From an uncultured Phycisphaerales bacterium (GTDB lineage Bacteria; Planctomycetota; Phycisphaerae; Tepidisphaerales; Tepidisphaeraceae), in contig CAIQIQ010000001.1 of NCBI GenBank assembly GCA_903871935.1, positions 1 through 64,000 on the forward strand: a DNA stretch of 64,000 bases, in the 5' to 3' direction. The position numbers and the translations under genes were made by a program. Positions 19,990 through 32,411 of this stretch are shown here, in pieces. The first letter of the stretch is position 1, and every line of letters starts with the position of its first letter. Below the pieces are notes generated by a model. It was given only the letters and a program-made list of their open reading frames with translations, made no database searches and was not told the origin of the DNA.

Positions 19990-20559
19990 ATGAGTGCAAA
20001 GGCGTATTTCCGCAACATCTACGATACCGTGAAAAGCATCTCCATTGGGATGTCCATCACGCTGAAATACTGTTTCCAGAACACTGTGACGGTGCAGTAC
20101 CCGGAGCAGCGGCTGGCTCTGGCTCCGCGCTATCGGGGTATCCACGAGTTCCAGGCGGATCTGTGTATCGCCTGTGACCAGTGCGCCAAGGCATGTCCGG
20201 TGGACTGTATCTACATCGAAAAGAGCGCGCCGCGGAAAATCGACAAAGCCACCGGCAAGGCGGCCGGCGGGGAACTGCAGCGGTTTGCCATCGACTATTC
20301 CAAGTGCATGTTCTGTGCGCTGTGCACCGAGCCATGTCCGACATCATGCATCCATATGGGCAAGCTGCATGATCATTCCGGATACAGCCGACGGGAGGCG
20401 GTGGTGGAATTCACCGAACTGGACAAACTCGGACAGAGGACACCGCTGCCCCTGTGGATGGACCGCAACGCCGACAAGATTCCGTGGGTTGAAGATGAGC
20501 GCAAGCGCATCAAAGCCGGGCAATTGGCTACCAATGCCGCTGATATCCCAGGTCGCTGA
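19990..20559 (+). CDS. nuoI: NADH-quinone oxidoreductase subunit I (NuoI)-like ferredoxin
   Basis: The 189-residue protein binds two [4Fe-4S] clusters through CIACDQCAKAC (Cys59, 62, 65, 69) and CMFCALCTEPC (Cys106, 109, 112, 116), each followed by Pro. The hydrophobic N-terminal helix and the TVQYPEQ block match NuoI of complex I, which passes electrons between subunits NuoG and NuoB. Other nuo genes are absent from the neighbourhood, which is unusual; nuoI is normally inside the nuo operon. No ribosome-binding site precedes the ATG. Confidence 0.85.
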   Translation: MSAKAYFRNIYDTVKSISIGMSITLKYCFQNTVTVQYPEQRLALAPRYRGIHEFQADLCIACDQCAKACPVDCIYIEKSAPRKIDKATGKAAGGELQRFAIDYSKCMFCALCTEPCPTSCIHMGKLHDHSGYSRREAVVEFTELDKLGQRTPLPLWMDRNADKIPWVEDERKRIKAGQLATNAADIPGR

Positions 20560-20598
20560 GCGGGCATTCGCCGGCAGGCAAACCTCAAACGGCAAGGG

Positions 20599-20946
20599 CT
20601 ACTTCTGCTTCTTAAGCAGGTAGACCGACGCGCCTTCCTGGTAGTGCACCTGCGAGATCTCCCAGCCCTGTTCGGCGAAGGCGTTCAGGAAGGCGAATTC
20701 CAGCAGGCCGCCTTTGGCTTCCCGCTCGGTAGTCCACTCCTTACCGCTAATGGTCCGGTACATCTCCGCCACATCGCCCGAACGTACATCGTCGGTCGCG
20801 GTAACGGTCTTGTCGGCCGACTGGAAGGTGGCGGCACGGTTGCCATACAGGAATCGGGCGTATTGGGTTGGGCCCTCGGCCAGAGCAGACTGGCCGAGAG
20901 CGAGTGCAAAGAGCAGGGCGGTCGCGATGGCGATCTTGCGCAGCAT
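20599..20946 (-). CDS. Small secreted protein, unknown function
   Basis: The 115-residue protein has a signal peptide (about 1-22, LALGQSALA). The mature part, about 93 residues, contains ADKTVTATDDVRSGDVAEMYR and ends with the strand-rich WEISQVHYQEGASVYLLKKQK. The final segment resembles small proteins with a DUF4177-like strand pattern, but the match is too weak to name. The ATG at 20946 is chosen because AAAGGAG precedes it; a longer reading to 21063 lacks a signal peptide. Its start lies 95 bases after the stop of the PQQ-repeat gene on the same strand. Confidence 0.65.
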   Translation of the reverse strand: MLRKIAIATALLFALALGQSALAEGPTQYARFLYGNRAATFQSADKTVTATDDVRSGDVAEMYRTISGKEWTTEREAKGGLLEFAFLNAFAEQGWEISQVHYQEGASVYLLKKQK

Positions 20947-21041
20947 GTTGTGGTTCTCCTTTGTGAGTGCCAGACCTTCTGGATGATACGCGCTGCAATG
21001 GAGGTATCCCCGTTTACAGCGGGAACCTGCAGCTTGCGAAT

Positions 21042-22307
21042 CTACTTCGCGATATCGTAGCACATCAGGGCATCACCATGGCGGATATAGAGCCGGCCGT
21101 CGGCGACGGTCGGGTGAGCCCAGTGTTGGTCAGCGCCCAGGGGAACCTTGAATGTGCTGAGCACCTGGCAAGCCTCGGGGTTGGGACGCATCAGACCAAC
21201 CACGCCGTCCTCGGAATAGCAGTAGAGCAAGCCATCGGCGTAGATGATGGAACCGCCTTTGCCGACGCCAGGGGCTTGCCAGGCGAGCCGGCCGGTCGCC
21301 AGTTCGACGCAAGTCCATTTACCCGCGGCCGACTGATGGCTGGAGGCGTAGACGTAGCCATCGACAAGAACCGCTTGCCCATGAGCGGGGTCTTGCCTGC
21401 GCTGCTCCCAGATCTGCTTCACGCTCAAGCCGTCGTCGGCCAGTGCCAGACCAATTGCGCCCTTGCCATATCCGCTGGTGATGTAGAGCAAACCGTTATC
21501 GTAGATCGGCGTGATGGGGTGATTGTTCCGGGGGTTTGCATAGGCGTGTTGCCAGAGCGGTTTGCCGTCGGTCGCCGAGAACGCGACGACGGCGTCTTCG
21601 GTCATCGACACAATGATGCGCTTGCCGCCGCGTTCGACGAGCAGCGGAGAACAAAAGCTGGATCCCTGGCCAAGGGGCTCGCTGGCCCAGACCTGCTGGC
21701 TCGTTTTGCGGTTGAGGGCGACCATAGTTGCCTTCTTGCCGCAGGGAGTGCAGATGACGTTTTCGCCATCGATCAACAGGCTCTCGGCAAATCCCCAGTC
21801 TACCTGCGGTGCATCGTAGAGTTGAAACACATTCGACGACCACACCGATTTGCCGGTCAGTGCATCGAAGCAGGCAAAGTTGCCTACGCCGCTGGCCACA
21901 TAGACCAGGCCATCATGAACCGTTGGTATGCTGCGGGCACCGGGGTAGCTCTTCTCCCATTCGGGGCCATATGAAGCCTCCCACTTAAGCTTCCCATCGC
22001 GCGAGTAGGCGTGCAGCATGCCTTGTTTGTCGACAAGGCCGCTGACATAGATCAGGTCACCGGCGGCCGAGACTTGGGAGAAGCCCTTGCCGATTCCTTG
22101 CATGCTCCAGAGAAGCTTGGGGCCGCCTTCGGGCCACTGCTGCAGGAGCCCCCTGGCGGCGGATCGACCATCGCGGTTGGGGCCGCGAAACTGCGGCCAG
22201 TCCTGACGAGCAGTGAGCAACGTAGACTGCGCCGATGCAGTTCCAATTGAGAGTGCCAGGGCAATCGAAATCAGAGTCAGAGCGATGTGCCAGGCTGGCG
22301 GCTTCAT
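21042..22307 (-). CDS. PQQ-like beta-propeller repeat protein, secreted
   Basis: The 421-residue protein has a signal peptide (about 1-27). It then shows WPQFRGPNRDG, the signature opening of planctomycete PQQ-like propellers. Repeated blocks such as DGLVYVASGVGN, ALTGKSVW, ATDGKPLW and DGLLYITSGYGKG are blades of a seven- or eight-bladed propeller. It may act as a scaffold (BamB-like) or as a quinoprotein; no dehydrogenase domain is seen. The ATG at 22307 has GGAG eight bases upstream. It lies 37 bases downstream of a small gene that follows the mini RNA polymerase. Confidence 0.8.
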   Translation of the reverse strand: MKPPAWHIALTLISIALALSIGTASAQSTLLTARQDWPQFRGPNRDGRSAARGLLQQWPEGGPKLLWSMQGIGKGFSQVSAAGDLIYVSGLVDKQGMLHAYSRDGKLKWEASYGPEWEKSYPGARSIPTVHDGLVYVASGVGNFACFDALTGKSVWSSNVFQLYDAPQVDWGFAESLLIDGENVICTPCGKKATMVALNRKTSQQVWASEPLGQGSSFCSPLLVERGGKRIIVSMTEDAVVAFSATDGKPLWQHAYANPRNNHPITPIYDNGLLYITSGYGKGAIGLALADDGLSVKQIWEQRRQDPAHGQAVLVDGYVYASSHQSAAGKWTCVELATGRLAWQAPGVGKGGSIIYADGLLYCYSEDGVVGLMRPNPEACQVLSTFKVPLGADQHWAHPTVADGRLYIRHGDALMCYDIAK

Positions 22308-22344
22308 GACATGATCTCCAGATAGGTGAGATACGAGGCGGGTT

Positions 22345-22608
22345 CTAGGCCGACGGTTCCTGCCACTGTTTGCCGGTGAGTTGGAAGAACCCGCCGCCAT
22401 CGTTCTTAAGGTAGCCCTTGTCAACGAGCTCATCCCAGATCGCCCGGCCGAACCCGGGCGGCGGTTGCATCGAGACGATCTTGTCTTTGGCCGATCCAAT
22501 AGGCCCGCGGCCAAGCTTGGAGTCTTCCTCAAGCTGGCTGGCGTTGAGCCGCTTGCGGAAGGTATTGAGCGCTTTACGAAGTTCTAGGGCGGTGCTGGGC
22601 ATGGGCAT
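22345..22608 (-). CDS. Small conserved-looking basic protein downstream of the mini RNA polymerase
   Basis: The 87-residue protein is rich in charged residues: ELRKALNTFRKRLNASQLEEDSK, then GRGPIGSAKDKI, IWDELVDKGYLK and a polar tail. The helical N-terminal half followed by a short WDELVDKGYL-type unit could be a winged-helix-like or adaptor fold. It starts 46 bases after the stop of the polymerase gene on the same strand, and so may belong to the same transcript. I do not recognise a family. The ATG at 22608 has no strong ribosome-binding site; the alternative start at 22602 is two codons later. Confidence 0.5.
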   Translation of the reverse strand: MPMPSTALELRKALNTFRKRLNASQLEEDSKLGRGPIGSAKDKIVSMQPPPGFGRAIWDELVDKGYLKNDGGGFFQLTGKQWQEPSA

Positions 22609-22654
22609 GTTGTACCCGGTTCGGTTCGGTCTGGCCACCGATAGACAATCGACC

Positions 22655-25600
22655 TTAGGGGGTCGGCAACCCAATGAATAGGCGCGAGTCGGGATCGGTG
22701 AGAGGATCGGTTTCATTGGCGAGAGCTGCACGTGCGAAGATCGAGCCGGGGCTGAGGCTGCGCATGGCGCGGGCGAGTACACCGAAGCCTTGGGGGGCGG
22801 AAGGTTCGGGGACGCCGTAGGCTTGCCGCATCTGGCCGGTAGGGTTCACACTGCATTGCGCGATTCCCAGACGTGCGCCGATGTAGCTCATGAAACAGGC
22901 CTCGGGCGTCAGGCCGCCCAAGGTATTCGACGCGAAGTAGTGGAGCTTGCGGTCGTAGTCGATGATGGTCCGGCAGATCAGGCCGAATGCGAGCTGCGTG
23001 GTATTGCCGCGGGCGCCGCTCTTGATGGCGAAGAGCTGCGGGCCGAACGGGTGTGTGTCATAGTCGGCGCTGCTGATGACCTGATCGATGGCGGCTTCTG
23101 TAGTGGGTTGGGGATGGGCGGGAGCGATGGTATCGGTAGGGGGAACGGCGGGCATGGCCCGATGGGCGAATGGGTTTAGCGAACAGCCGCTTGATGCGAT
23201 CGTTGCCAAGCCCAGAAGCATCAGGTGGTGGCATACGTCCAAGGTGCGATCCGGGCCGTGTTGGGCCAGATGAGTAGTCATGGCATCGCGGAGGCTGGCG
23301 AGGGTAATGAAGTTGTGGCCGGTGGTACAGTCGGTGCCGGCAATGGCGGAGATCTGCTGGCGACCGGCGGCGGTGCGGCTGAGCCATGCCAGACCGAAGA
23401 GTGGATCCAGCCGTGGAATCATCCAGCGGATGTTTGAGGGGTCGCGGCGCAGATGGGCAGCGCAGGTGAGCTTTTCGCCAGCTTCGGCTTGGCCTGCGGC
23501 CGTGACCGGCAGGTAGAGCGTGACCTGGTCGCCGTCGTGATCGGCGTTGAGCATGGCGCAGCAGAGCGGGTGGAGGCGGATGACGTTTTCTATCCTGCGG
23601 ACGGGGTGGAAGGCGATGATCGACGTGGGCATGACGGCGGGTTCGCGGACCAGAAGAACCCAGTGGCTTGCCATTGTCTGATCGAGGGCAGCGGCCGCTT
23701 CAGGCGAGCGGTTGCGGACGGCATCGGCACCGACCTCGCCTTCGACCATTGGGCCAAAGAGCTTCCATGCGATGGCATCGGGGATACCGCACTGGTATTG
23801 CGTCAGCGTATCACTCGGTGCGATGACGGCACGGGCGGCGAAGAGGGGTCTGCCTTCCATCCGCAAGGCATCGTGGGCAAGGAGTCGGGCAAAGTGGTCG
23901 TTAACCTTTGCCTGAAGCGTGGCGGTGGCCCGCTGCAGCAGGCGAACAGGGGGGCTGGCGCCGAGCATCTGCTGCACAGCAGTGTTTGCCTCTACAATAT
24001 CGGCAGGGGCATGGCCAATGAACTTCAGGGAATGTTCCGGGAGCCAGGGGTGAGGGACGGGAACGGCGAGGGGTAGGTCATCAGAGGTCGGCTGGCGGAT
24101 GGCGAAGATGGCGCGGCCGATGTCGATCTGAAGGGATATGCCGGCAGCGTTCAGGGACTGCTGCAGGCGGGCGCACAGCGGAGTTGTTGGCGACGCCTGG
24201 TCCACGAGGCCGCGTGTGAGACGGCCGAAGAGTGTGACTGCGGCGGAATTATCGGCGGACTGGGTATGGTAGAGATCAAGGATGGTGGCGCAAGCATGCA
24301 GTTCGCGCAGGACGAGATACTGCACGTGGCTTGCGGTTTGGGGCTTGAGGTTCAGGCCGGCCTTGGCGCGGTGTACGGTAAGACCCCAATAGACGGAACC
24401 GACGAAAGTGGTTCGGTCAAACGGGCGGCCGCCGCGGCCGTTGCGGAGCTGCTGCATGCCATCTTCAGGCAGGCCTGCGGAGCGCAAGCGTTCTTGGATC
24501 TCCTCGTCGGTAGGTCCGGCAAAGGGAGGAACGACGACGGGCTGGCCCTGGGCGCGGGCAAGAAGGCCCAGAAGACCCTCGCGGAGTTGGCCGAAACTCA
24601 TGCGGCTTTGCAGACCGAGGAAGCTGAAGATGATATCGACAGGTCTACCATCGGGAGTATGCGGCATCTGCTGATCGGGGAGGATGAGACTGATGACGCC
24701 TTTCTGCCCGTGGCGGTTGGCGAGCTTATCGCCGACCTCGACAGGCTGTTCGGGAGAAAGACGTGCTGCGGCAGAGGTGCTCAGAACGATGCCATCCTCA
24801 AACGTCGCTGCGCCGACGGACATGTAGGCGGTGAGGAGATTCCGTCCGCACCAGAATCCGGGGGCGACCGGTTCGAGGCCAGTCTGAACCAGGGCGGGCT
24901 CGGGATCAGGCAGGGGAACCCATTGGCGTTGCATGTTCACGCCCATGAGCAGGCGATTGGCATCGGTGTGGTTGAAGCAGGGGATGGTGGCGGCGTTCAC
25001 GCCCAATTTTCCCGCGTACGAGCTGTCCACGATGATGAGCTTGCGGTCGCGGATGACAGCGCCGCGGGCGATCGAGAGCACCTTGGCGCAGGCGTGGCTC
25101 TCGGGCGTCTCGAAAGGGCAGGTGCGGTTGAGTTCGGAACTGTCCACCAGGGAAGAGGGATTCGTGTCGGCGGTGCGACGACGCTGTGGAACCACGATCC
25201 GACGCAGGTGGGTAATGCGCGCGAGGCAGTTCTGCTGATCGAGCGATTGTACGGTGCCCCAGCCAAAGAGGGCTTCGACGTCACGATTGGATTGGCCGGA
25301 GAGGAACGACTCAATCCGTTGATCCAGGGAAAGCCAATGTGCCAACAGTTCTGCATCCCACGCCAGGCCGGAAGGTGCGGGGGCGATCCGAGGATCGAGG
25401 ATACGGGCAAGCTGCTCGCCGACACAGAGAATCTCGCCTTCATCCAATCGGCTGGCGGTCGCTACAGGCACGACGACCCGGGCACGCCGGTGGATATAGA
25501 ACACGCCATGCTCATCGCAGTCGGGGATGGTAAAGACGACCTGGACAGCGCCGGATGCCTTGTTCAGACCAATGGTGAGCTGCCAGTTCTCAGGATTGAG

Positions 25601-25726
25601 CCGAGTTGCCTCATACCGGCCCAGTGGGAGGCGTTCGTCCAACAACGCAGGCAGGTATTCGTTGATGAAGCGGAGGTAAGATTGGCGATGCCACGGGGCT
25701 GTTATTGTCGTGGGAATTGTGTTCAT
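22655..25726 (-). CDS. Fused, minimal beta-beta' RNA polymerase (two-barrel RNAP)
   Basis: This 1,023-residue protein carries landmarks of RNA polymerase beta and then beta' in canonical order. Beta-type blocks: GVFYI (about 74-78); LDQQN and THLRR (162-176); RTCPFETPE (201-209); IPCFNHTDANRLLMG and NMQRQ (248-271), the rifampicin/fork region; FEDGIVLS (309-316); GDKLANRHGQKGVIS (332-346), with both Lys that contact the nucleotide in cellular enzymes; GLQSRMSFGQ (371-380); RPFDRTTFVG (434-443). Beta'-type blocks: PVPHPWLPEHSLKFIG (556-571); GRPLFAARAVI and QCGIP (625-649); LHPLCCAMLNADHDGDQ, whose Asp729, Asp731 and Asp733 are the catalytic Mg triad; SGARGN (903-908); GLTPEACFMSYIGARLG (938-954), like the start of the bridge helix. 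No flap, zinc ribbon, clamp coiled coil or trigger loop is seen. Escherichia coli beta plus beta' is 2,749 residues. ATG chosen because AAGGA precedes it. The start overlaps the sigma gene stop (ATGA). Function as a polymerase is inferred. Confidence 0.9.
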   Translation of the reverse strand: MNTIPTTITAPWHRQSYLRFINEYLPALLDERLPLGRYEATRLNPENWQLTIGLNKASGAVQVVFTIPDCDEHGVFYIHRRARVVVPVATASRLDEGEILCVGEQLARILDPRIAPAPSGLAWDAELLAHWLSLDQRIESFLSGQSNRDVEALFGWGTVQSLDQQNCLARITHLRRIVVPQRRRTADTNPSSLVDSSELNRTCPFETPESHACAKVLSIARGAVIRDRKLIIVDSSYAGKLGVNAATIPCFNHTDANRLLMGVNMQRQWVPLPDPEPALVQTGLEPVAPGFWCGRNLLTAYMSVGAATFEDGIVLSTSAAARLSPEQPVEVGDKLANRHGQKGVISLILPDQQMPHTPDGRPVDIIFSFLGLQSRMSFGQLREGLLGLLARAQGQPVVVPPFAGPTDEEIQERLRSAGLPEDGMQQLRNGRGGRPFDRTTFVGSVYWGLTVHRAKAGLNLKPQTASHVQYLVLRELHACATILDLYHTQSADNSAAVTLFGRLTRGLVDQASPTTPLCARLQQSLNAAGISLQIDIGRAIFAIRQPTSDDLPLAVPVPHPWLPEHSLKFIGHAPADIVEANTAVQQMLGASPPVRLLQRATATLQAKVNDHFARLLAHDALRMEGRPLFAARAVIAPSDTLTQYQCGIPDAIAWKLFGPMVEGEVGADAVRNRSPEAAAALDQTMASHWVLLVREPAVMPTSIIAFHPVRRIENVIRLHPLCCAMLNADHDGDQVTLYLPVTAAGQAEAGEKLTCAAHLRRDPSNIRWMIPRLDPLFGLAWLSRTAAGRQQISAIAGTDCTTGHNFITLASLRDAMTTHLAQHGPDRTLDVCHHLMLLGLATIASSGCSLNPFAHRAMPAVPPTDTIAPAHPQPTTEAAIDQVISSADYDTHPFGPQLFAIKSGARGNTTQLAFGLICRTIIDYDRKLHYFASNTLGGLTPEACFMSYIGARLGIAQCSVNPTGQMRQAYGVPEPSAPQGFGVLARAMRSLSPGSIFARAALANETDPLTDPDSRLFIGLPTP
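23528..23548 (-). other. Catalytic NADHDGD codons of the mini RNA polymerase
   Basis: These seven codons encode Asn-Ala-Asp-His-Asp-Gly-Asp. Cellular beta' has NADFDGD at this site, so only Phe is changed (to His). The three Asp that hold the catalytic magnesium are intact. Confidence 0.9.
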
Positions 25727-26304
25727 GGCGTTCCTTCGGGTTTGTCCGGCCACTGACGCTGGAGGTGAGCTCGAGCGTAGTGCAGCCGGCTCTTGACTGT
25801 TCCGCGGGCGATACCGAGCTGCTGTGCTACCTGTGCGATGTCCATGCCTTGCTCGATCATAAGCTGCAGGACTTCGCGCTGGGTGTCGGGCAGCGCATCG
25901 ATCAGGACACGCAGAAGGGCACGGTTCTCCGATTGTTCGCAGAGCAGATCCGGTCCGGCGGACGCGTTGTCGACAATCCCGCGAGAAGTACGGGTGCCAT
26001 CCTCGTCGGGGCTGCCATCCAGCGGCTGGGCCGGACGGCGACGGAGCGTGCGGAGATGGTTGAGCGCAAGGTTCGTCGCTGTACGGATCAGCCAGGCTCC
26101 AGCAGGGCCCGTGCCGGAATACTGTTCCGATCGCGTCCAGACGCGGAGGAAGGTGTCCTGCAGGACATCCTCGGCCGCGGCCTCATCGCGCAACATCCGC
26201 TGGAGGCGACTCTTGATCGCTGTGGCGTGACGGTTGAACAGCTCGTCGAACGCTGTCGCATCGCCCGCACTGATCGCCGAGATAAGCTGCTCGTCGGATC
26301 GCAT
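25723..26304 (-). CDS. ECF sigma factor, translationally coupled to the mini RNA polymerase
   Basis: The 193-residue sigma-70 family protein has region 2 (AFDELFNRHATAIKSR, AEDVLQDTFLRVW and the helix AWLIRTATNLALNHLR) and region 4 (LPDTQREVLQLMIEQG, LGIARGTVKSRLHYAR). Length is typical of ECF factors. The end of the gene is CCATGA: the ATG of the polymerase gene overlaps the TGA, and the ribosome-binding site of the polymerase lies inside the last codons of this gene. Stoichiometric co-production is likely. The ATG at 26304 lacks a clear Shine-Dalgarno; an in-frame GTG at 26352 is an alternative start. It may direct the mini polymerase, or host polymerase may use it to transcribe the operon; the sequence does not decide. 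Confidence 0.92.
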   Translation of the reverse strand: MRSDEQLISAISAGDATAFDELFNRHATAIKSRLQRMLRDEAAAEDVLQDTFLRVWTRSEQYSGTGPAGAWLIRTATNLALNHLRTLRRRPAQPLDGSPDEDGTRTSRGIVDNASAGPDLLCEQSENRALLRVLIDALPDTQREVLQLMIEQGMDIAQVAQQLGIARGTVKSRLHYARAHLQRQWPDKPEGTP

Positions 26305-26391
26305 CTGCTGCGTACTACCGTGGATGACACCGCCGGAGCGGTGGCGGTTCACGGATTGTCGCGCAAGAGCAGGAAGAGGTCCATCGTGGCA

Positions 26392-26410
26392 ATCCTGTTG
26401 GGCACAGGAT
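26392..26410. promoter_or_regulatory. Inverted repeat between the sigma and TPR-alphaCTD genes
   Basis: ATCCTGT (26392-26398) and ACAGGAT (26404-26410) form a perfect 7-bp inverted repeat with a 5-base spacer. It lies about 90 bases upstream of the sigma start and about 40 bases before the -35 of the divergent gene. An operator role is inferred. Confidence 0.4.
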
Positions 26411-26448
26411 TTATGCTGCGCACGACGGCGATCGCCTTGCGGCCGTGG

Positions 26449-26478
26449 TTGACAGGTGCAGCAATGCCAAGTAGTAAT
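26449..26478 (+). promoter_or_regulatory. Promoter of the TPR-alphaCTD gene
   Basis: A perfect TTGACA (26449-26454) is followed after 18 bases by AGTAAT (26473-26478), four of six matches to a housekeeping -10. This gives a leader of about 100 bases before the ATG at 26588. Confidence 0.5.
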
Positions 26479-26587
26479 AACAAATTGCGTCCGTGCGGAT
26501 GGCTTGGTTTCCCGTGGCTACTGCCGGATCGAAGTCGAGGCGGGATGATTACCGGATTGTCCCTGGTTGGAGACGGAAGACACGACC

Positions 26588-27493
26588 ATGAGTGAAATGA
26601 CAGCAGTTGCAGTAAACGAGAAGGCGGCGGAAGAGCAATATCGCAAGGGCATTGATGCCGAGAAGCACGGCCAGGATGAGCAGGCTATTGAAGCCTATGA
26701 GATGGCCCTGGAAGCGAATCCCGACCATGAACAGGCAGTATTCCGTCTGGCGCTGCTTTATGACCGCCGCGCCGAGGATGCCAAGGCGATCGAGTTGTAT
26801 GAGCGGCTTTGCTCCAGCCAGCCGGTGCATGTCAATGCATTGATGAATCTGGCGATTCTGTATGAGGATAACAACCACTACGATGAGGCGTTCCGCTGCC
26901 TCGCGGCCGTGCTGGATACCTATCCCAACCATCAGCGCGCACGTCTTTACATGAAGGATGTTGAGTCGGCCCGCGGAATGTTCTATGACGAAGATGGGAT
27001 GATGGGCGGCTCGCGCGGCATTGTGCTGGAGATACCCATCACGGACTTTGAGCTCTCGGTTCGCAGCCGCAACTGCCTGAAGAAGATGAACATGCGCACG
27101 TTGGGCGATTTGCTGAAGACGACCGAGCAGGAACTGCTCTCGTATAAGAACTTCGGTGAGACCAGCCTGAGCGAGATCAAGGCGCTGTTGGCTCAGAAGG
27201 GCTTGCGACTTGGGCAATCGCTGGAACCTGGTGAGGTCCCGGTGAGCCGGCGAATGCCAGTTGAACTGCCGGAAAACGTTGCGCCGGAGATTCTAAGCAA
27301 ACTCGTGGTTGACATGGAACTGTCCGTGCGCAGCCGCAAGGCGCTGCAGCGGCTGAATATCGGCACTGTGGGGGAACTGGCTCAGCGCACGGAGCAGGAA
27401 CTGCTTGCGTGCAAGAACTTCGGGCAGACAAGCTTGAACGAGATCAAGCACCAGCTCACGCAGTATGGGTTGTCGCTGCGGAAACTGGACTAG
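26588..27493 (+). CDS. TPR protein with two RNA polymerase alpha C-terminal domains
   Basis: The 301-residue protein starts with about three tetratricopeptide units (about 11-118), including AIEAYEMALEANPDHEQA. Two alpha C-terminal domains (alphaCTD) follow, at about 150-209 and 239-299. Domain 1 reads LSVRSRNCLKK and NFGETSLSEIK; domain 2 reads LSVRSRKALQR and NFGQTSLNEIK. In Escherichia coli alphaCTD, Arg265, Asn268, Cys269, Gly296, Lys298 and Ser299 bind the DNA minor groove (UP element). Domain 1 keeps all but Lys298; domain 2 also lacks the Asn and Cys equivalents. No alpha N-terminal dimerisation domain is present. It is divergent from the sigma-mini-RNAP operon with 283 bases between. 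A role as a DNA-binding or adaptor partner is plausible but not proven. Confidence 0.9.
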   Translation: MSEMTAVAVNEKAAEEQYRKGIDAEKHGQDEQAIEAYEMALEANPDHEQAVFRLALLYDRRAEDAKAIELYERLCSSQPVHVNALMNLAILYEDNNHYDEAFRCLAAVLDTYPNHQRARLYMKDVESARGMFYDEDGMMGGSRGIVLEIPITDFELSVRSRNCLKKMNMRTLGDLLKTTEQELLSYKNFGETSLSEIKALLAQKGLRLGQSLEPGEVPVSRRMPVELPENVAPEILSKLVVDMELSVRSRKALQRLNIGTVGELAQRTEQELLACKNFGQTSLNEIKHQLTQYGLSLRKLD

Positions 27494-27528
27494 TTGGGGC
27501 TTGGCTGCGACCGCATGGAAAGGAAGCC

Positions 27529-28779
27529 ATGGGTGAGCTGCGGGCTGCTATTGCTCTGCTGGTGATGGGGCTGATGCTCCTGTGCGGTGGTTGCGCGCCG
27601 CAGGGAGGCGGGGCGGTTCTTCCCAAGGGTATTCCCGTGGTTCGCGTGCGCATCCTGCAGGCGTGCAGCGAGGCGCGCATCGTCGCGACAAGTCCGTTGT
27701 GGGCCAAGAGTCAAGCCGACCTCACGCCGCAACCCGTGAGCTTTCCGGCCGCCCCGGGATCCATACTCAAGCTGGTCAATGGCGGTTGGATCGCCGGTGG
27801 CGTGCCGCTGGGATCTGGCGAACTGACGCTGACACCCGGCCGGGCCGGCACGGTATCGGTTGAAGGGCGTTGCTGCCGTGGGCGCTATCGTCTTGTACCA
27901 GTGGGACAAGGCCTCTTCGATGTCGTGAACGACGTCGACGTGGACAGCTATCTCAAAGGTGTGCTGCCGGTTGAACTGTATTCAACCTGGGAGGAAGAGG
28001 CCTACAAGGCCCTGGCGATTGCGGGGCGGACGTATGCGATCTTCGAGTCGAAGGTGACGGGAGTGCGCCGGGCTTATGACTTGAACAGCGATGAACGTAG
28101 CCAGATGTATAAGGGGATTGCTTCCGAGACGAGCAAGAGCATTCGGGCGGTGGAGGCGACGGCGGGAGTGGTGGTGGCGTACGGGCCGCCGGGGCAGGAG
28201 AGGATCTTCCGGGCGTATTACTCAAGCTGTTGCGGCGGGAAGACACAGTCATCCCATGATGCGTTTGGCGATGACTACTTGCCGCCGCTTGGGGAGTTTG
28301 ACCGGGGAGCCACGTGCAGCATTTCCAATAAGTTCAACTGGGGCCCGGTCGTAATCAGCAAGGCGGAATTGTCGAAGCGGTTTGCAGCGTGGGCCAAGCG
28401 CAAGAGCGAGCAGGAAGGCCAACCGCGGCCGGAACTGAGGATGCAGGGCGTCGCCCGGATCGAACAGGCCTATGTGAACAAGCTTGGCCGGCCGGTGCTG
28501 TTCTACGTGACGGACAATGCGAACCTGCGGTTCATGATGCGGGCGGAGGATGTACGGTTGGCGATCGCAAGCGAAGCCAACGGCGGGCCGACGGTTTACA
28601 GCGGTTACTTCAACACGATCAACGAGGCCGAGCGCATTCGGTTCATCGATGGGCATGGATATGGCCATGGCGTGGGGATGTGCCAGTGGTGTGCGCAGCG
28701 GCAGGCGCTATTGGGCTGGCGGCACGAAGATATCGTGATTGCGAACTTTCCTGGGACGAAGCTGATCAGGGCGTATTGA
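27529..28779 (+). CDS. SpoIID/LytB-domain lipoprotein
   Basis: The 416-residue protein has a signal ending in a lipobox (LLCGGC). The SpoIID/LytB region begins at NDVDVDSYLKGVLPVEL, followed by ALAIAGRTYAIFESK, the SSCCGGKTQ block and the C-terminal HGYGHGVGMCQWCAQ motif, which is usually GHGVGMSQWGA. SpoIID domains are lytic transglycosylases or amidase enhancers that act on peptidoglycan. Here Cys occupies two positions normally held by Ser and Gly. The ATG at 27529 has AAGGA five bases upstream. Its 3' end overlaps that of cstA by 14 bases, so the genes converge. Confidence 0.85.
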   Translation: MGELRAAIALLVMGLMLLCGGCAPQGGGAVLPKGIPVVRVRILQACSEARIVATSPLWAKSQADLTPQPVSFPAAPGSILKLVNGGWIAGGVPLGSGELTLTPGRAGTVSVEGRCCRGRYRLVPVGQGLFDVVNDVDVDSYLKGVLPVELYSTWEEEAYKALAIAGRTYAIFESKVTGVRRAYDLNSDERSQMYKGIASETSKSIRAVEATAGVVVAYGPPGQERIFRAYYSSCCGGKTQSSHDAFGDDYLPPLGEFDRGATCSISNKFNWGPVVISKAELSKRFAAWAKRKSEQEGQPRPELRMQGVARIEQAYVNKLGRPVLFYVTDNANLRFMMRAEDVRLAIASEANGGPTVYSGYFNTINEAERIRFIDGHGYGHGVGMCQWCAQRQALLGWRHEDIVIANFPGTKLIRAY

Positions 28780-30961
28780 CTGGCACTGGGTTGCGTTTGT
28801 CCAGCAGGATTTTAGCCGCAGAGCCCCAGAGCACGATCAGCGTGCAGATCAGCATCAGGGCAATCAGTGACATCTGGACAGCGCTGTTTGCGATGGTGGT
28901 CCAGTTGCGAAGGGCAGCTTCCAGACTGAGCTGAGTTGAGACGCCGCGCCACTGGCTGATCAGCATCTGGATTGCGGCGGTTGAGGTGGTCGTCAGCACC
29001 ACCGCGAGCGGCGCTACGGTCACCCACAGGTATTTGGCCCGCCCTTCGCTGAAGAGCCAGACAGAGATCACGGCCAGGGCGATCACTGCCAGCATCTGAT
29101 TGGCGATGCCGAACATGGGCCAGATGGCGGCCATCGAGTTGGAACTGATGAAATATCCCCAGCCGGCGACCATCATGGCAGTAGAGAGAATGGCGGAGGG
29201 CCACCAATCGGTCTGACCCAATTTGGGGACGACTCGGCCCATCAACTCCTGCAGGACGAAGCGACCGACGCGGGTGCCGGTGTCGATGGTGGTCAAGATG
29301 AACAGCGCCTCGAACATGATGGCGAAGTGGTACCAGTATTTCCACATCGCATTCAGAGCTGCCTGGGAGTTGGTGGCAACGCGGGAGATGGCTTTGTCGA
29401 AGATCTCGGCCATGCCGACGGCGAGGGTGACGGCACCGCCGGTCCGGCCGCGGAGCGATTCCTGGGTGAGCTGCTCGTAGCGCGGCAGGTTGTCCTGCTG
29501 CACATTCAGGTGCTCGATGCCACCTCCGCCGCCGACTTGGAGGATACGTTCCTGGAATACCGGCACCTTTGCCAGGTCGGTGTTCATGGCGTAGTAATCC
29601 TGCACCGGCAGGGCGGCGGCGGCGATCATGGCGGTTACGCCTACCAGGGCCTCGATCAACATTGCGCCGTAGCCGATTGTCCGAGCATCCGACTCCCGCT
29701 TGATCATTTTGGGCGTGGTGCCGGACGAGACCAGCGAATGGAAGCCCGAGATGGCACCGCACATGATGGTGATGAAGAGGAAGGGGAAGATCTGGCCTGG
29801 GACGGTGGGCCCGCCGTTGAGGAATACGTGGTTGACGGCGGGGGCGTGCAGGGCGGGATTGGCGACTATGACGCCGCCAACGAGGGCGGCAATGGTCCCG
29901 ATCTTGAGGAAGCTGGAGAGGTAGTCGCGCGGGCAGAGCAGCACCCACACCGGCAGCACCGATGCGATAAAGCCATAGGCCATCATGCACCAGATGACGG
30001 CAGAATCTCTGAGGTTGAAGAACTGACTGAACGGCTGCTGGGAGACCCATCCGCCGGCGAAGGTCGCGCCAAGTGTGAGAACGGCGCCGATCAGGGAAGC
30101 TTCGACGACATGGCCTTTGCGGATGCGGTACATGTAGAGGCCGACGAAGAGGGCGATGGGGATGGTGCAGGCAATCGTGAAGGCGCCCCAGGGCGAGCCG
30201 GGGACAACGCGGACGGCTGAGGACGGCAACTGGGCGATCCCATTCACAACCGGCATGAGGTTGGAAAACGTCCCATAGTCGCGTGATGGTTCGCGCGTGC
30301 AGAGTTGAAATGACTCCTGGATCAGCATCTCGCCTTGTGGCCAGCGAAGTGTGCTCCCCGCGGGGACCTGGTAGATCAGTTCGTGCGGTGCGCCAACGCG
30401 AGCTCGCTCGCTGTGTTCAGTGATGGACATCCATGTGGGGCGGTCTTTGGGCAATATCAGCACGCTTCCGGCCGGGTACTTGACCTCTTCCCCGCCCAGT
30501 GCCTTTACCACCACCTTGCCCAAGCCCGCGAGGGCGATGATGAGGATGAAGACGATGGCGAGCATGGAGGCGGTGCCGGTGACTTTGCCGATGCGGGCGT
30601 AGGCAATCTGGGCGATGGACTTGCCATCGTGGCGGATGCTCGCGGCCAGGGCGAGGAAATCCTGGACAGCGCCGGCGAGGCAGACGCCGATCACGATCCA
30701 CAGCAGGCCGGGCATGTAGCCGAACTGGGCGGCCAGCACCGGGCCGATCAGTGGGCCTGCGCCGGAGATGGCCGCGAAGTGGTGGCCGAAGAGCACCCAC
30801 TTGCTGGTCGGGTGGTAGTTGTGCCCATCGTTCAGACGGTACGCGGGCGTCTGGCGTGTGTCGTCTAGCACGGCGACTTTGGCGGCCAGGAACGCGCTGT
30901 AGTAGCGGTAGGCCAGCGCCAAGACGCACAAAACGACGATCATGACAGGCATTGCCGACAA
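28766..30961 (-). CDS. cstA: Carbon starvation protein CstA (peptide/pyruvate transporter)
   Basis: The 731-residue membrane protein has the CstA signature near the N-terminus (YHPTSKWVLFGHHFAAISGAG), then PLIGPVLAAQFGY and about 16 hydrophobic helices; a later FHSLVSSGTTPKMI is also typical. Known members import peptides or pyruvate under carbon limitation. There is an insertion of about 100 residues after the fourth or fifth helix (around IPITEHSER), with strand-rich content. The start is probably TTG at 30961 because AGAGG lies seven bases upstream; an ATG three codons later lacks a nearby ribosome-binding site. Confidence 0.92.
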   Translation of the reverse strand: MSAMPVMIVVLCVLALAYRYYSAFLAAKVAVLDDTRQTPAYRLNDGHNYHPTSKWVLFGHHFAAISGAGPLIGPVLAAQFGYMPGLLWIVIGVCLAGAVQDFLALAASIRHDGKSIAQIAYARIGKVTGTASMLAIVFILIIALAGLGKVVVKALGGEEVKYPAGSVLILPKDRPTWMSITEHSERARVGAPHELIYQVPAGSTLRWPQGEMLIQESFQLCTREPSRDYGTFSNLMPVVNGIAQLPSSAVRVVPGSPWGAFTIACTIPIALFVGLYMYRIRKGHVVEASLIGAVLTLGATFAGGWVSQQPFSQFFNLRDSAVIWCMMAYGFIASVLPVWVLLCPRDYLSSFLKIGTIAALVGGVIVANPALHAPAVNHVFLNGGPTVPGQIFPFLFITIMCGAISGFHSLVSSGTTPKMIKRESDARTIGYGAMLIEALVGVTAMIAAAALPVQDYYAMNTDLAKVPVFQERILQVGGGGGIEHLNVQQDNLPRYEQLTQESLRGRTGGAVTLAVGMAEIFDKAISRVATNSQAALNAMWKYWYHFAIMFEALFILTTIDTGTRVGRFVLQELMGRVVPKLGQTDWWPSAILSTAMMVAGWGYFISSNSMAAIWPMFGIANQMLAVIALAVISVWLFSEGRAKYLWVTVAPLAVVLTTTSTAAIQMLISQWRGVSTQLSLEAALRNWTTIANSAVQMSLIALMLICTLIVLWGSAAKILLDKRNPVPVNTP

Positions 30962-31000
30962 GGTTGTACCTCTGGTTCTGAATCAGTTTCCGGGCCGATG

Positions 31001-31918
31001 TCACGGCAGTGTGTTGCCCGCAGCGCAATAGAGCTCGTACCACTGCGGACGAGTCAGCGCTACATCGCAGGCCTTGGCGACCTGGCGGACGCGGTCTGGA
31101 TGGGTGGTACCGACGATCGGCTGAATCCTGGCCGGGTGGCGAAGGATCCACGCGATGGCGATTGTCGTGTTGGTGACGCCATAGGCTTTGGCCATGGCGT
31201 CGATGGCGCGGTTCAGGTCGGGGAATTTTGGGTTATCCAGGAAGACGCCCTCGAAGAAGCCGAACTGGAAGGGCGACCAGGCCTGGATGGTGATCTTTTT
31301 GAGCCGGCAGTAGTCCAGGATGCTGCCATCGCGATCGATCGAGCGCGGGATCTGCATGTTCACGTTCAGGCCGTGGTCGATCATGCCGGTATTGGTCATG
31401 CTGAACTGCAACTGGTTGGCTTGCAGCTTCTGCTGCAAGCTTGCCTGCAGCAGTTCGATCTGGGCGGGGTTGTGGTTGCTCACGCCGAAGTGCCGCACCT
31501 TGCCGGATCGATTCAGGGCGCTGAACGCGTCGGCCACCTCTTCAGGCTCAATCAGCGTATCCGGCCGATGCAGCAGCAGGATGTCGAGGTAATCCGTCTG
31601 CAGCCGCTTGAGGATGCCATCTGCGGAGGTCAGGATGTGCTCCTTCGAGAAATCGAAAGAGCCTTTGCGGATGCCGCACTTGCTCTGCAGGATGAGTTGC
31701 TCGCGCTTGAGACCCAGGCGGGCAACCGAGCGGGCAAAGACTTCTTCGGACTTTCCGCCGCCGTAGATATCGGCGTGATCATAGAAGTTAATCCCCGCCT
31801 CCCAGGCGGTGCGGATCAGGGTATCGGCGGCCTGGTCGCTCATTTTGCTGATGCGCATGCAGCCAAGAGAGACTTCCGACGCCTGCAGGTTCGAGGTTCC
31901 GATGTTCATCATCTTCAT
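31001..31918 (-). CDS. Aldo/keto reductase
   Basis: The 305-residue protein has the TIM-barrel aldo/keto reductase layout with all expected active-site residues: Asp and Tyr in NFYDHADIYGGG, Lys in LQSKCGI, His in LLHRPD. NAD(P)-binding is suggested by GVSNH and by PIVGTT near the C-terminus. It resembles the YdhF branch. The substrate is unknown. The ATG at 31918 has GGAG six bases upstream. It lies 39 bases upstream of cstA on the same strand, so an operon is possible. Confidence 0.88.
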   Translation of the reverse strand: MKMMNIGTSNLQASEVSLGCMRISKMSDQAADTLIRTAWEAGINFYDHADIYGGGKSEEVFARSVARLGLKREQLILQSKCGIRKGSFDFSKEHILTSADGILKRLQTDYLDILLLHRPDTLIEPEEVADAFSALNRSGKVRHFGVSNHNPAQIELLQASLQQKLQANQLQFSMTNTGMIDHGLNVNMQIPRSIDRDGSILDYCRLKKITIQAWSPFQFGFFEGVFLDNPKFPDLNRAIDAMAKAYGVTNTTIAIAWILRHPARIQPIVGTTHPDRVRQVAKACDVALTRPQWYELYCAAGNTLP

Positions 31919-32411
31919 AGCAGACTCCTTCAAGGCGCAGTGTATCGCGCGGTGTAACGGCGACAACAGCCGGGCGGGGGGCCGGAGAGGAAGGAAGATT
32001 GCAGGGGGCGCGCGAATATCTTTAGGCCTTGTAAGGGGTCGTGGGGCAAGGGGCGAGAGTGGTTGTGGATAAGTAGCAGGTGCGCAGGTTCTCGGTGAGG
32101 GTACCCCCTATACGCTAACCCCCATGGAGCCAAGGAGTTAGGCAGAGATTGAGGGAGGAGGTGCGCAGGTTCGGGGCGATTGTGGATAAGTCCGGGGAAA
32201 AGCGGAAAGCGAAAAGCGAAAAGCGGAAACGAAGAGTTCGGAAGTCAGAAGTCAGAAGGGCGTTCCGTTTTGTTCCACTTTGGTTCAACCTCGGAGGCGG
32301 CTCGGAAATAAAGTGGGCAAATTCGGGACATTCTGGGACATTGGCCTGGGAATCGCGCTGGCAAACCTGATGCCAGGGCACGACTCACCGACAGCAGTCG
32401 GTGGGCTTTGA
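31919..32411. other. Intergenic region with duplicated DnaA-box elements and purine repeats
   Basis: No gene is supported here. TGTGGATAA, the reverse complement of the perfect DnaA box TTATCCACA, occurs at 32064-32072 and again at 32181-32189. A GGTGCGCAGGTTC block lies close to each copy. Around 32195-32235 short purine direct repeats (AAAAGCGGAAAGCG) follow. The right part grades into the decayed nuclease fragment. Confidence 0.5.

Follow-up and report, generated by a model that had tools for sequence, protein, structure and literature searches.

In the taught picture, a bacterium has a single core RNA polymerase to which different sigma factors bind in turn, and the locus described here raises the question of whether a bacterial chromosome can carry a second, single-chain core with a sigma factor dedicated to it. 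The window (the whole 64,000-nucleotide stretch of DNA that was analysed, from an uncultured Phycisphaerales bacterium) contains a gene for such a polymerase directly downstream of an ECF sigma gene. The reading that we favour, with a probability of roughly 0.6, is that these two genes constitute a self-activating second transcription system, in which RNA synthesis, sigma-core binding, and promoter function are all inferred.

The polymerase gene (22655..25726) is on the minus strand, running from an ATG at 25726 to a stop at 22655, and codes for 1,023 residues, with residue n starting at base 25726-3(n-1); the GTG-start version given by the ORF finder has 1,032 residues. A first-pass annotation had placed the gene correctly but did not give its strand. 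It had also claimed beta and beta' motifs in canonical order in one protein with less than 40% of the length of Escherichia coli beta plus beta', and both statements agree with the results: RTCPFETPE, NMQRQ, GDKLANRHGQKGVIS, QCGIP, and NADHDGD are all found, Pfam matches RNA_pol_Rpb2_3 (3e-6), Rpb2_6 (1e-36), and Rpb1_2 (8e-15) in order on one chain, each exceeding its curated cut-off, and the protein has 37% of the 2,749 residues measured for E. coli beta (1,342) and beta' (1,407). Scores against the NCBIfam equivalog models are 163-164 bits for rpoB and 73 bits for rpoC, compared with cut-offs of 801-896 and 963, respectively. Judged from sequence, a single-chain open reading frame with this order of beta and beta' parts is far beyond chance, because homologues with identical part order are present in 18 other genomes. 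PADLOC has no match for the polymerase, and a role as part of a known defence system is thus rejected; Rfam reports no RNA element above its thresholds in 20000-32000.

Alignment to the E. coli subunits with HHalign defines what is retained. The beta-like half (24119..25693, minus strand; residues 12-536) corresponds to beta 30-147 and 441-1341, with the lobes and flap missing; the match to beta 441-1341 is strong (E 6e-66), and that to beta 30-147 is weaker (probability 75%). The beta'-like half (22850..24109, minus strand; residues 540-959) corresponds, with gaps, to beta' 226-787 and includes an equivalent of the clamp helices (23876..24004, minus strand; residues 575-617) that aligns ungapped to beta' 270-311. 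In canonical enzymes the beta' clamp helices are the docking element for sigma2, and the flap is where sigma4 docks in known holoenzymes. A conserved C-terminal element (22667..22798, minus strand; residues 977-1020), with the pattern LARAMR...DPLxDxDSRLFxGL, weakly resembles the extreme C-terminus of beta' (1328-1354; E 0.34). No counterpart of the beta lobes, the flap, the beta' N-terminus, or the trigger-loop/jaw region is detected in the polymerase by HHalign against E. coli, nor is an equivalent of the second half of the bridge helix or of the trigger loop. The protein is a member of neither canonical RpoB nor canonical RpoC, which are full-length subunits on separate chains and have lobes, a flap, and a trigger loop. 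It shares with them homology over beta 441-1341 and beta' ~226-787, motif order, and catalytic residues, but its family consists of one chain of ~1,000 residues, forms a separate clade, and is present beside the normal enzyme.

Conservation was assessed across 18 polymerase sequences, excluding the copy with an in-frame stop (G988) and not counting two copies (L004 and G1023) past the contig ends that truncate them. The asparagine and three aspartates of the catalytic NADHDGD (23528..23548, minus strand; residues 727-733) are invariant in 18/18, and GDKLANRHGQKG (24698..24733, minus strand; residues 332-343) contains the beta active-site lysines K334 and K342. Fourteen of the 51 E. coli positions examined are identical in all 18 sequences, among them E813, R1069, H1070, K1073, and R1106 of beta and R352, P427, N458, D460, D462, and D464 of beta'; at the position of beta K1065, 16 have K and two have R. 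The earlier statement that active-site residues are intact is borne out for the catalytic residues, although several nearby positions in the window copy differ from the family: H replaces the F of NADFDGD, H211 and A212 replace P567 and N568 (kept in 12/18 and 17/18), and G457 replaces K1242 (kept in 15/18). These departures near the active site count against the two-gene system; polymerase activity is very likely, with RNA synthesis inferred. By block, conservation is high in the barrels (0.52-0.59), falling to 0.29 in the clamp helices and to its lowest, 0.26, in the bridge-helix region. The positions of E. coli R275 and E295, which we take to be sigma70-binding residues, are Ala in 13/18 and 12/18, a substitution pattern that would fit a re-tuned sigma interface.

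A decaying, non-functional rpoB-rpoC remnant is scarcely credible as an explanation, notwithstanding the many missing domains and the in-frame stop in one of 19 copies (G988), given that frames are open in 18/19 (two of those truncated by contig ends), that the same C-terminal end block is present in every aligned copy reaching that far, that four pairs show purifying selection on the polymerase (dN/dS 0.11-0.38; Nei-Gojobori, own script), and that the family is not nested with host Armatimonadota polymerases (AU p 4e-7).

The structure models are uneven. Confidence is poor for the model of the whole chain (mean pLDDT 55.9), and a model of the beta' half from a beta'-half alignment has a mean of 67.3, with low confidence past residue ~847; two larger alignments, in which beta' rows fell on the beta half or beta rows on the beta' half, were discarded. 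The beta' barrel strands (629-738) have block pLDDT values of mostly 84-97 (10/12 blocks), and the clamp-helix region is modelled as helices 575-590 and 594-617, with block pLDDT of 81-85 over residues 578-607. Beta residues 311-450 reach 77-92 in 11/14 blocks, and residues 233-292 are below 50, such that the model covers the beta barrel incompletely. Of the two double-psi barrels proposed as a structural check by the first-pass annotation, the beta'-like one is therefore confident, but the beta one is supported by sequence and only in part by the model. With Foldseek the top match of the whole chain is RNAP beta (E 3.5e-13, with a TMq of only 0.15), and that of the second half is RNAP beta' (E 2e-17, TMq 0.51). 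Among viral proteins, the fold matches comprise ordinary polymerase subunits and unnamed proteins. Taking a two-barrel RNA polymerase to be one with two double-psi beta barrels, of which one has the NADxDGD aspartates and one has conserved lysines, the protein qualifies on the combined evidence of sequence and models.

The window's genome also has normal rpoB (1,267-aa frame) and rpoC (1,487-aa frame) genes, a separate pair whose presence had been proposed as a check. Among 83 named RpoB sequences, none of them from a named planctomycete, those closest to the RpoB of this genome are Akkermansia, Opitutales, Opitutaceae, and Verrucomicrobia records, in keeping with the PVC group, of which planctomycetes are part. 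Normal rpoB is seen in 13/19 carrier genomes, and the lack of a match in the other six is most simply explained by incomplete MAGs. The 18 other genomes carrying homologues include two with copies truncated by contig ends and one (G988) with the in-frame stop. The location in a planctomycete chromosome noted earlier stands, but the family is commoner in Armatimonadota: relatives are present in 17 of the 291 genomes from the phylum of an Armatimonadetes MAG, 15 of them as intact copies of full length, and in 2/397 genomes of the window's class, one being the window's own and the other G040. A TPR-alphaCTD gene adjoins the cassette, which is missing beside the same gene in the eight relatives fetched; the cassette was probably acquired horizontally in the window's genome. 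A contaminant contig is ruled out, the neighbouring TPR-alphaCTD gene being normal for the family.

This sporadic occurrence, the eight empty sites, and the many phages that carry separate or fused beta-beta' are what would be expected of an unrecognised phage or mobile-element polymerase in transit through chromosomes. We nonetheless consider such an origin improbable: Pfam, run on ten window frames, and PHROGs, run on five (frames beyond these were left unannotated), give no phage- or transposon-like gene except generic sigma and polymerase matches, the sigma gene alone is common to 18 loci, no place in 50,697 records of phages and 72,556 of plasmids covers 80% of either query (n=2), and the family clade is separate from sampled phage polymerases. 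In a tree of beta plus beta', 16 family rows (G988, L004, and G1023 being excluded) form one clade at 100, apart both from sampled cellular polymerases and from the 20 IMG/VR relatives placed (13 separate, 7 fused). The tree is a quick one without bootstrap, the order of clades is unresolved, and long branches are flagged, the window's among them. The AU test also rejects a recent derivative of an Armatimonadota host polymerase, with the long branches as a caution.

Early scans of IMG/VR and the genome collection that started from the window protein or from alignments of two sequences (one IMG/VR scan with six peptide patterns, the others with two each) found nothing. A DNA signature of the flap deletion (with the F of FED omitted) is swamped by normal rpoB; among at least 118 genome-collection stretches with this signature one (L165) has both halves in one frame, and the one viral match (L053) is an Rpb2-like fragment ending in a zinc-ribbon-like stretch. 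In an IMG/VR scan with L165, the 80 relatives examined out of 180 are separate-gene or longer fused phage polymerases. A profile of non-universal segments has matches in 49/397 genomes of the class, with cassette matches only in the window's genome and G040; the best remaining matches sit where ordinary rpoB was already seen.

Several known enzymes invite comparison. The rpoB-rpoC fusions of Wolinella and Ca. Adlerbacteria are full length, and AR9 nvRNAP has a promoter-specificity subunit. To our knowledge, no linked ECF sigma factor is known for phage two-barrel RNAPs. These include P23-45 gp64/gp96, with PhiKZ/AR9 nvRNAP and crAss-like gp66 also mentioned in the source (PMC10770324). Like the window polymerase they are outside the cellular core and some are single-chain, but they are phage genes, and the IMG/VR rows are in other clades; gp66 and the P23-45 RNAPs occur neither among the 60 sequence matches that were listed out of 192 nor among the top 50 fold matches. 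The rpoB-rpoC fusions (PMC11515920) likewise combine beta and beta' in a single polypeptide, but there the fusion is the organism's normal enzyme, whereas the window's is 37% of the combined length and additional. YonO of phage SPbeta (PMC5467207) is a prophage-borne, ~100-kDa single chain with two barrels, an aspartate triad, and no trigger-loop homology, its need for a promoter factor being left open. The window polymerase resembles it in all of these architectural features but differs in that its family always has an attached sigma gene. The comparison with YonO-type polymerases made at first pass does not extend to sequence: only the DxDGD patch matches SPbeta YonO (HHalign E 0.18, HMMER 0.03, blastp 0.37), with E values of at least 0.03, and assignment as YonO-like was rejected.

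The ECF sigma gene (25723..26304, minus strand) codes for 193 residues and shares 4 nt (ATGA) with the start of the polymerase gene. We prefer its ATG at 26304, the GTG of the ORF finder at 26352 falling on the promoter motif. Pfam identifies Sigma70_r2 (5e-17) and r4_2 (2e-14), and with sigma2 and sigma4 only and its own GAAC/GTC-type promoter the protein has the predicted attributes of an ECF sigma factor. That an ECF sigma gene lies beside the polymerase had been recognised earlier, and the association proves constant: a homologous sigma gene, identified in the other 18 loci through alignment with the window sigma, is directly upstream of the polymerase in 19/19 loci, overlapping in 15, and is the sole neighbour common to the 18 neighbourhoods compared. 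Sigma and polymerase distances correlate (r 0.898, n=18; 0/10,000 permutations); in the 11 genomes in which both host genes are long enough, r is 0.909 for sigma and polymerase, compared with 0.707 for either one against host RpoBC, and the partial r for sigma and polymerase is 0.82. Linked co-inheritance alone yields correlated distances, a point against the two-gene system.

ECF sigma/anti-sigma operons usually have the anti-sigma gene downstream of, and overlapping, the ECF sigma gene. The cassette is alike in its GAAC/GTC-type promoter and overlapping downstream gene but has a polymerase core in place of the anti-sigma. The polymerase could be a core-derived anti-sigma, a decoy trapping the sigma on its clamp helices, as would suit both the mimicry of gene order and overlap and the retention of those helices with loss of the flap. 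This is more than doubtful, however: a decoy needs no aspartate triad, yet the catalytic residues are invariant in 18/18 and the barrels are among the most conserved parts, with the clamp helices among the least (0.29).

Upstream of the sigma-polymerase operon is a promoter-like motif, TGAAC-N16-GTGTC (26326..26351, minus strand; -35 at 26347-26351, -10 at 26326-26330). The pattern [TC]GAAC-N15/16-GTGTC is present upstream of sigma in 19/19 loci (18/19 upstream regions as first cut, the 19th after a start-codon shift), against 21 of 38,000 shuffled upstreams; its action as a working promoter is inferred. The -35/-10 spacing is that ordinarily found for ECF sigma factors acting with a normal core and could be read equally by the host core with this sigma, which counts against the two-gene system. 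It remains possible, though unlikely, that the sigma and the host's normal core switch the operon on and that the single-chain polymerase is active elsewhere, with its own sequence-specific or nonspecific start or in RNA-templated or primer synthesis. The ordinary sigma2 and sigma4 and the absence of a flap from the mini-core would suit this arrangement, but against it stand the 19/19 linkage, a co-divergence of the two genes tighter than that of either with the host core, and the keeping of the clamp helices despite much other loss.

In the two-gene system that we favour, the ECF sigma and the single-chain polymerase would be made from one promoter, translationally coupled, and would form a small holoenzyme. 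Sigma2 would dock on the retained clamp helices and read and melt GTGTC, and sigma4 would read GAAC although no flap holds it in place; binding of sigma to the single-chain core is an inference, the clamp helices being present and the flap absent. With its two-barrel active site intact and no recognisable trigger loop, the polymerase would transcribe from its own promoter as well as from unidentified targets, that it makes RNA being an inference. By analogy with YonO (PMC5467207), transcription may be of lower fidelity. Besides the points already named, the two-gene system has against it the absent flap, the lack of a detectable trigger loop and of the bridge helix beyond its first half, the poorly conserved bridge-helix region, the low model confidence past residue ~847, the absence of a demonstrated regulon, the six genomes lacking an rpoB match, and the in-frame stop of G988. 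The fuller version of this proposal, a portable orthogonal second apparatus whose single-chain core of ~110 kDa, deep-branching within the bacterial-type polymerase lineage, recruits its own ECF sigma by way of a re-tuned clamp interface, needs neither flap nor trigger loop, and keeps itself going through its own promoter, we regard as evenly poised. If the proposal is true, the one-core rule fails, a chromosome having a second core and a sigma reserved for it, and this would be a natural minimal sigma-dependent RNA polymerase. It would reveal the smallest natural part set still obeying a sigma factor, allow a test of the purpose that the flap and the trigger loop truly serve, and provide an orthogonal transcription tool of only two genes. 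The deep branching, if upheld, would bear on domain loss or gain in two-barrel polymerases.

Across the 19 genomes TGAAC-N16-GTGTC has 135 matches, compared with 59 for the reversed pattern; 13 are the cassettes' own sites, leaving an excess of 122 versus 59 that could reflect k-mer bias or real targets. We claim neither a regulon nor its absence from this search. Nineteen of 20 non-cassette sites in two genomes are inside some ORF of at least 120 aa on either strand, a lax check in GC-rich DNA, and one non-cassette site (L369) has a 368-aa ORF 25 nt downstream.

The polymerase gene (ATG at 25726 to a stop at 22655, minus strand) is a 1,023-aa open reading frame whose translation contains all of the motifs quoted in the first-pass annotation, and Pfam matches to Rpb2_3, Rpb2_6, and Rpb1_2 follow in sequence, confirming that beta-type and then beta'-type elements lie on a single chain. 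The genome also has a separate and normal rpoB (C62, a 1,267-aa open frame) and rpoC (a 1,487-aa open frame), and the ECF sigma gene reported beside the polymerase is indeed there (25723-26304, minus strand), overlapping the polymerase start by 4 bases. The protein is not a full-length rpoB-rpoC fusion, nor is it YonO-like, and no Pfam, NCBIfam, PHROGs, or PADLOC family spans its whole length. Two-barrel polymerases and single-chain phage versions are already known; a chromosomal single-chain polymerase tied to its own sigma factor and promoter appears to be new, in that searches of the open literature returned no title or abstract describing such a pair, although subscription papers, such as surveys of two-barrel polymerases, may contain one. 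A term search of the main text of one polymerase-insertion survey covering Armatimonadetes (PMC11515920) did not find paralog, YonO, or ECF.

The family, comprising this protein and its relatives in 18 other genomes, is organized as a much-reduced core. HHalign comparison of an 18-sequence family alignment with a beta alignment led by Escherichia coli matches residues 87-536 to beta 441-1341 (E 6e-66) and, more weakly, residues 12-87 to beta 30-147, with the beta C-terminus retained to its natural end. The HHalign blocks give no family counterpart for beta 148-440 (the lobes), most of 825-1057 (the flap region), 600-650, most of 707-790, or 1124-1177. In the beta' half, blocks 226-313, 334-520, 577-652, and 681-787 align to residues 540-959; an earlier stretch of the local alignment, covering the beta half, is spurious. 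HHalign detected no family counterpart of the beta' N-terminus or of beta' 788-1327, including the trigger loop and jaw, and residues 993-1019 only weakly resemble beta' 1328-1354 (E 0.34). All copies that reach the end share a block of the LARAMR...DPLxD..xRLFxG type, which rules out a truncated C-terminus, and it cannot be excluded that the conserved LARAMR element hides a degenerate trigger loop. By analogy with YonO, in which trigger-loop homology is not detectable and which is processive, if less accurate (PMC5467207), catalysis could survive without a trigger loop.

The active site is well preserved. The aspartate triad is complete in every aligned family sequence, with F at the position between its first and second aspartates in most sequences, H in the window copy, and Y or N in others, and 14 of the 51 E. 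coli positions examined are identical in 18/18 sequences. The window copy deviates from the family at the equivalents of P567, N568, and K1242. Conservation peaks at 0.52 to 0.59 in the barrel and C-terminal blocks and has its lowest values, 0.29 and 0.26, in the clamp helices and the bridge helix, respectively, a pattern that argues against the neat idea that the polymerase is a core-derived decoy acting as an anti-sigma factor. The polymerase dN/dS values for four close pairs, computed with our own script, are 0.11, 0.20, 0.14, and 0.38.

A homologous sigma gene lies directly upstream on the same strand in 19/19 loci (17 Armatimonadota, the window, and G040, a second genome of the window's class). 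With start codons as we chose them, on which junction lengths depend, 15 of the 19 junctions overlap by 1 to 14 nt, three have gaps of 4 to 14 nt, and one has a gap of 90 nt. In an all-against-all comparison of 18 neighborhoods (up to 8 kb per side, far less on short contigs, and without G040), sigma is the sole neighbor common to all; other widespread clusters proved to be other-frame reading frames within the polymerase and sigma genes. Sigma distances track polymerase distances (r 0.898, n = 18, 0 of 10,000 permutations), and in the 11 genomes with both host RpoB and RpoC the correlation is 0.909, versus 0.707 for either with the host polymerase (partial r 0.82). Judged from sequence distances, the two genes are a heritable pair; binding is not shown, as linkage alone would give the same correlation. 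The chief rival reading is that sigma serves the host core polymerase.

The motif [TC]GAAC-N15/16-GTGTC, the form that ECF promoters usually take, immediately precedes the sigma start in 18 of the 19 loci, and in the 19th as well after its start codon is shifted to the second ATG; shuffled upstream regions contain it in 21 of 38,000 cases. The window motif is TGAACCGCCACCGCTCCGGCGGTGTC (26351-26326, minus strand). Several loci, including the window, share a further GGTA(G) a few bases past GTGTC, near the expected transcription start. The N16 form occurs 135 times in the 19 carrier genomes versus 59 for the reversed pattern, and 19 of 20 non-cassette sites in two genomes lie inside some open reading frame. 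A further exact match to TGAAC-N16-GTGTC elsewhere in the genome that contains the window (L369; G000:C76:12314-12339, minus strand) is followed after 25 nt by a 368-aa open reading frame that may be a target.

The clamp helices, on which sigma2 docks in known enzymes, align without gaps in the family (beta' 270-311) and are predicted as two helices in a structure model (residues 575-590 and 594-617); the equivalents of R275 and E295, which we take to be sigma70-contact residues, are alanine in 13/18 and 12/18 sequences, respectively. We consider it most likely, with binding of the two proteins inferred rather than shown, that the single-chain core pairs with sigma as a small holoenzyme, which would initiate at its own promoter and at other, unknown sites. 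With the flap gone, sigma4 lacks its known seat and would either gain a new one or hold DNA through its linker alone.

Carriers are rare in the window's lineage. Two of 397 sampled genomes of its class have the polymerase, the second being G040, whose copy is 48% identical and ends at a contig edge, and the window's genome is the sole carrier both in a 392-genome phylum sample and among 26 genomes of its order. A flap-deletion DNA signature led to one full-length relative, L165, in an Armatimonadetes MAG, and 17 of 291 genomes in that phylum have a relative (open frames of 887 to 1,205 aa), of which 15 are intact and full length and one (G1023) stops at a contig end. The remaining copy (G988, stretch L271) is interrupted in frame by a TAA near residue 405, reflecting either decay or sequencing error. 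These counts are lower bounds, as no more than the top two candidates per genome were scored in the searches of the class, the phylum, and Armatimonadota. Searches of 50,697 phage and 72,556 plasmid records with two queries gave no match over at least 80% of either query. Of the 19 carrier genomes, 13 have a detected normal rpoB, whereas none was found in the other six assemblies; one of these, G748, yielded just a 35-bit RpoB-like fragment.

A divergent gene for a TPR protein with two RNA-polymerase-alpha C-terminal domains (26585-27493, plus strand) adjoins the cassette and is followed by a SpoIID-like gene (27520-28779, plus strand). The former is present in 23/26 genomes of the window's taxonomic family, and 7/8 fetched stretches have a SpoIID-like gene no more than 3 kb away from it, directly adjacent in six; the window contig thus fits its genome. 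No polymerase or sigma match lies beside the TPR gene in the eight fetched relatives, including one of the same genus (tblastn, E 1e-8), and the cassette therefore fits an accessory insertion at this site. A small open reading frame of about 87 aa (22345-22608, minus strand, with the ATG as we chose it) lies between the polymerase and a PQQ-repeat gene.

In a tree of 64 beta-plus-beta' rows (913 columns, quick search, SH-aLRT support only), the family forms one clade (100) and 22 cellular bacterial rows another (99), with phage polymerases forming further clades, one of 13 rows with separate genes and one of 7 rows with fused genes; the order of all four is unresolved. An AU test rejects a grouping of the family with the seven host polymerases from Armatimonadota (p 4e-7). 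The family stem is long and the window row is flagged as long, so exact branching depth is not fixed. The window copy branches among Armatimonadota copies, which, together with its rarity in its class, would fit horizontal transfer into the window's lineage.

Single-chain phage beta-beta' polymerases of 1,644 to 2,511 aa are present in L235 (IMG/VR), L228, L237, L240, and L248. In L235, merely 26 residues separate the last [FYW]ED from GDK, which may make it a flap-reduced polymerase that does not belong to the family. Two further fused phage polymerases (L230 and L247, from IMG/VR) have an intein-like insert (CVDEETEFLT and CYAADHEILT) right behind GDKL/ADKL at the active site.
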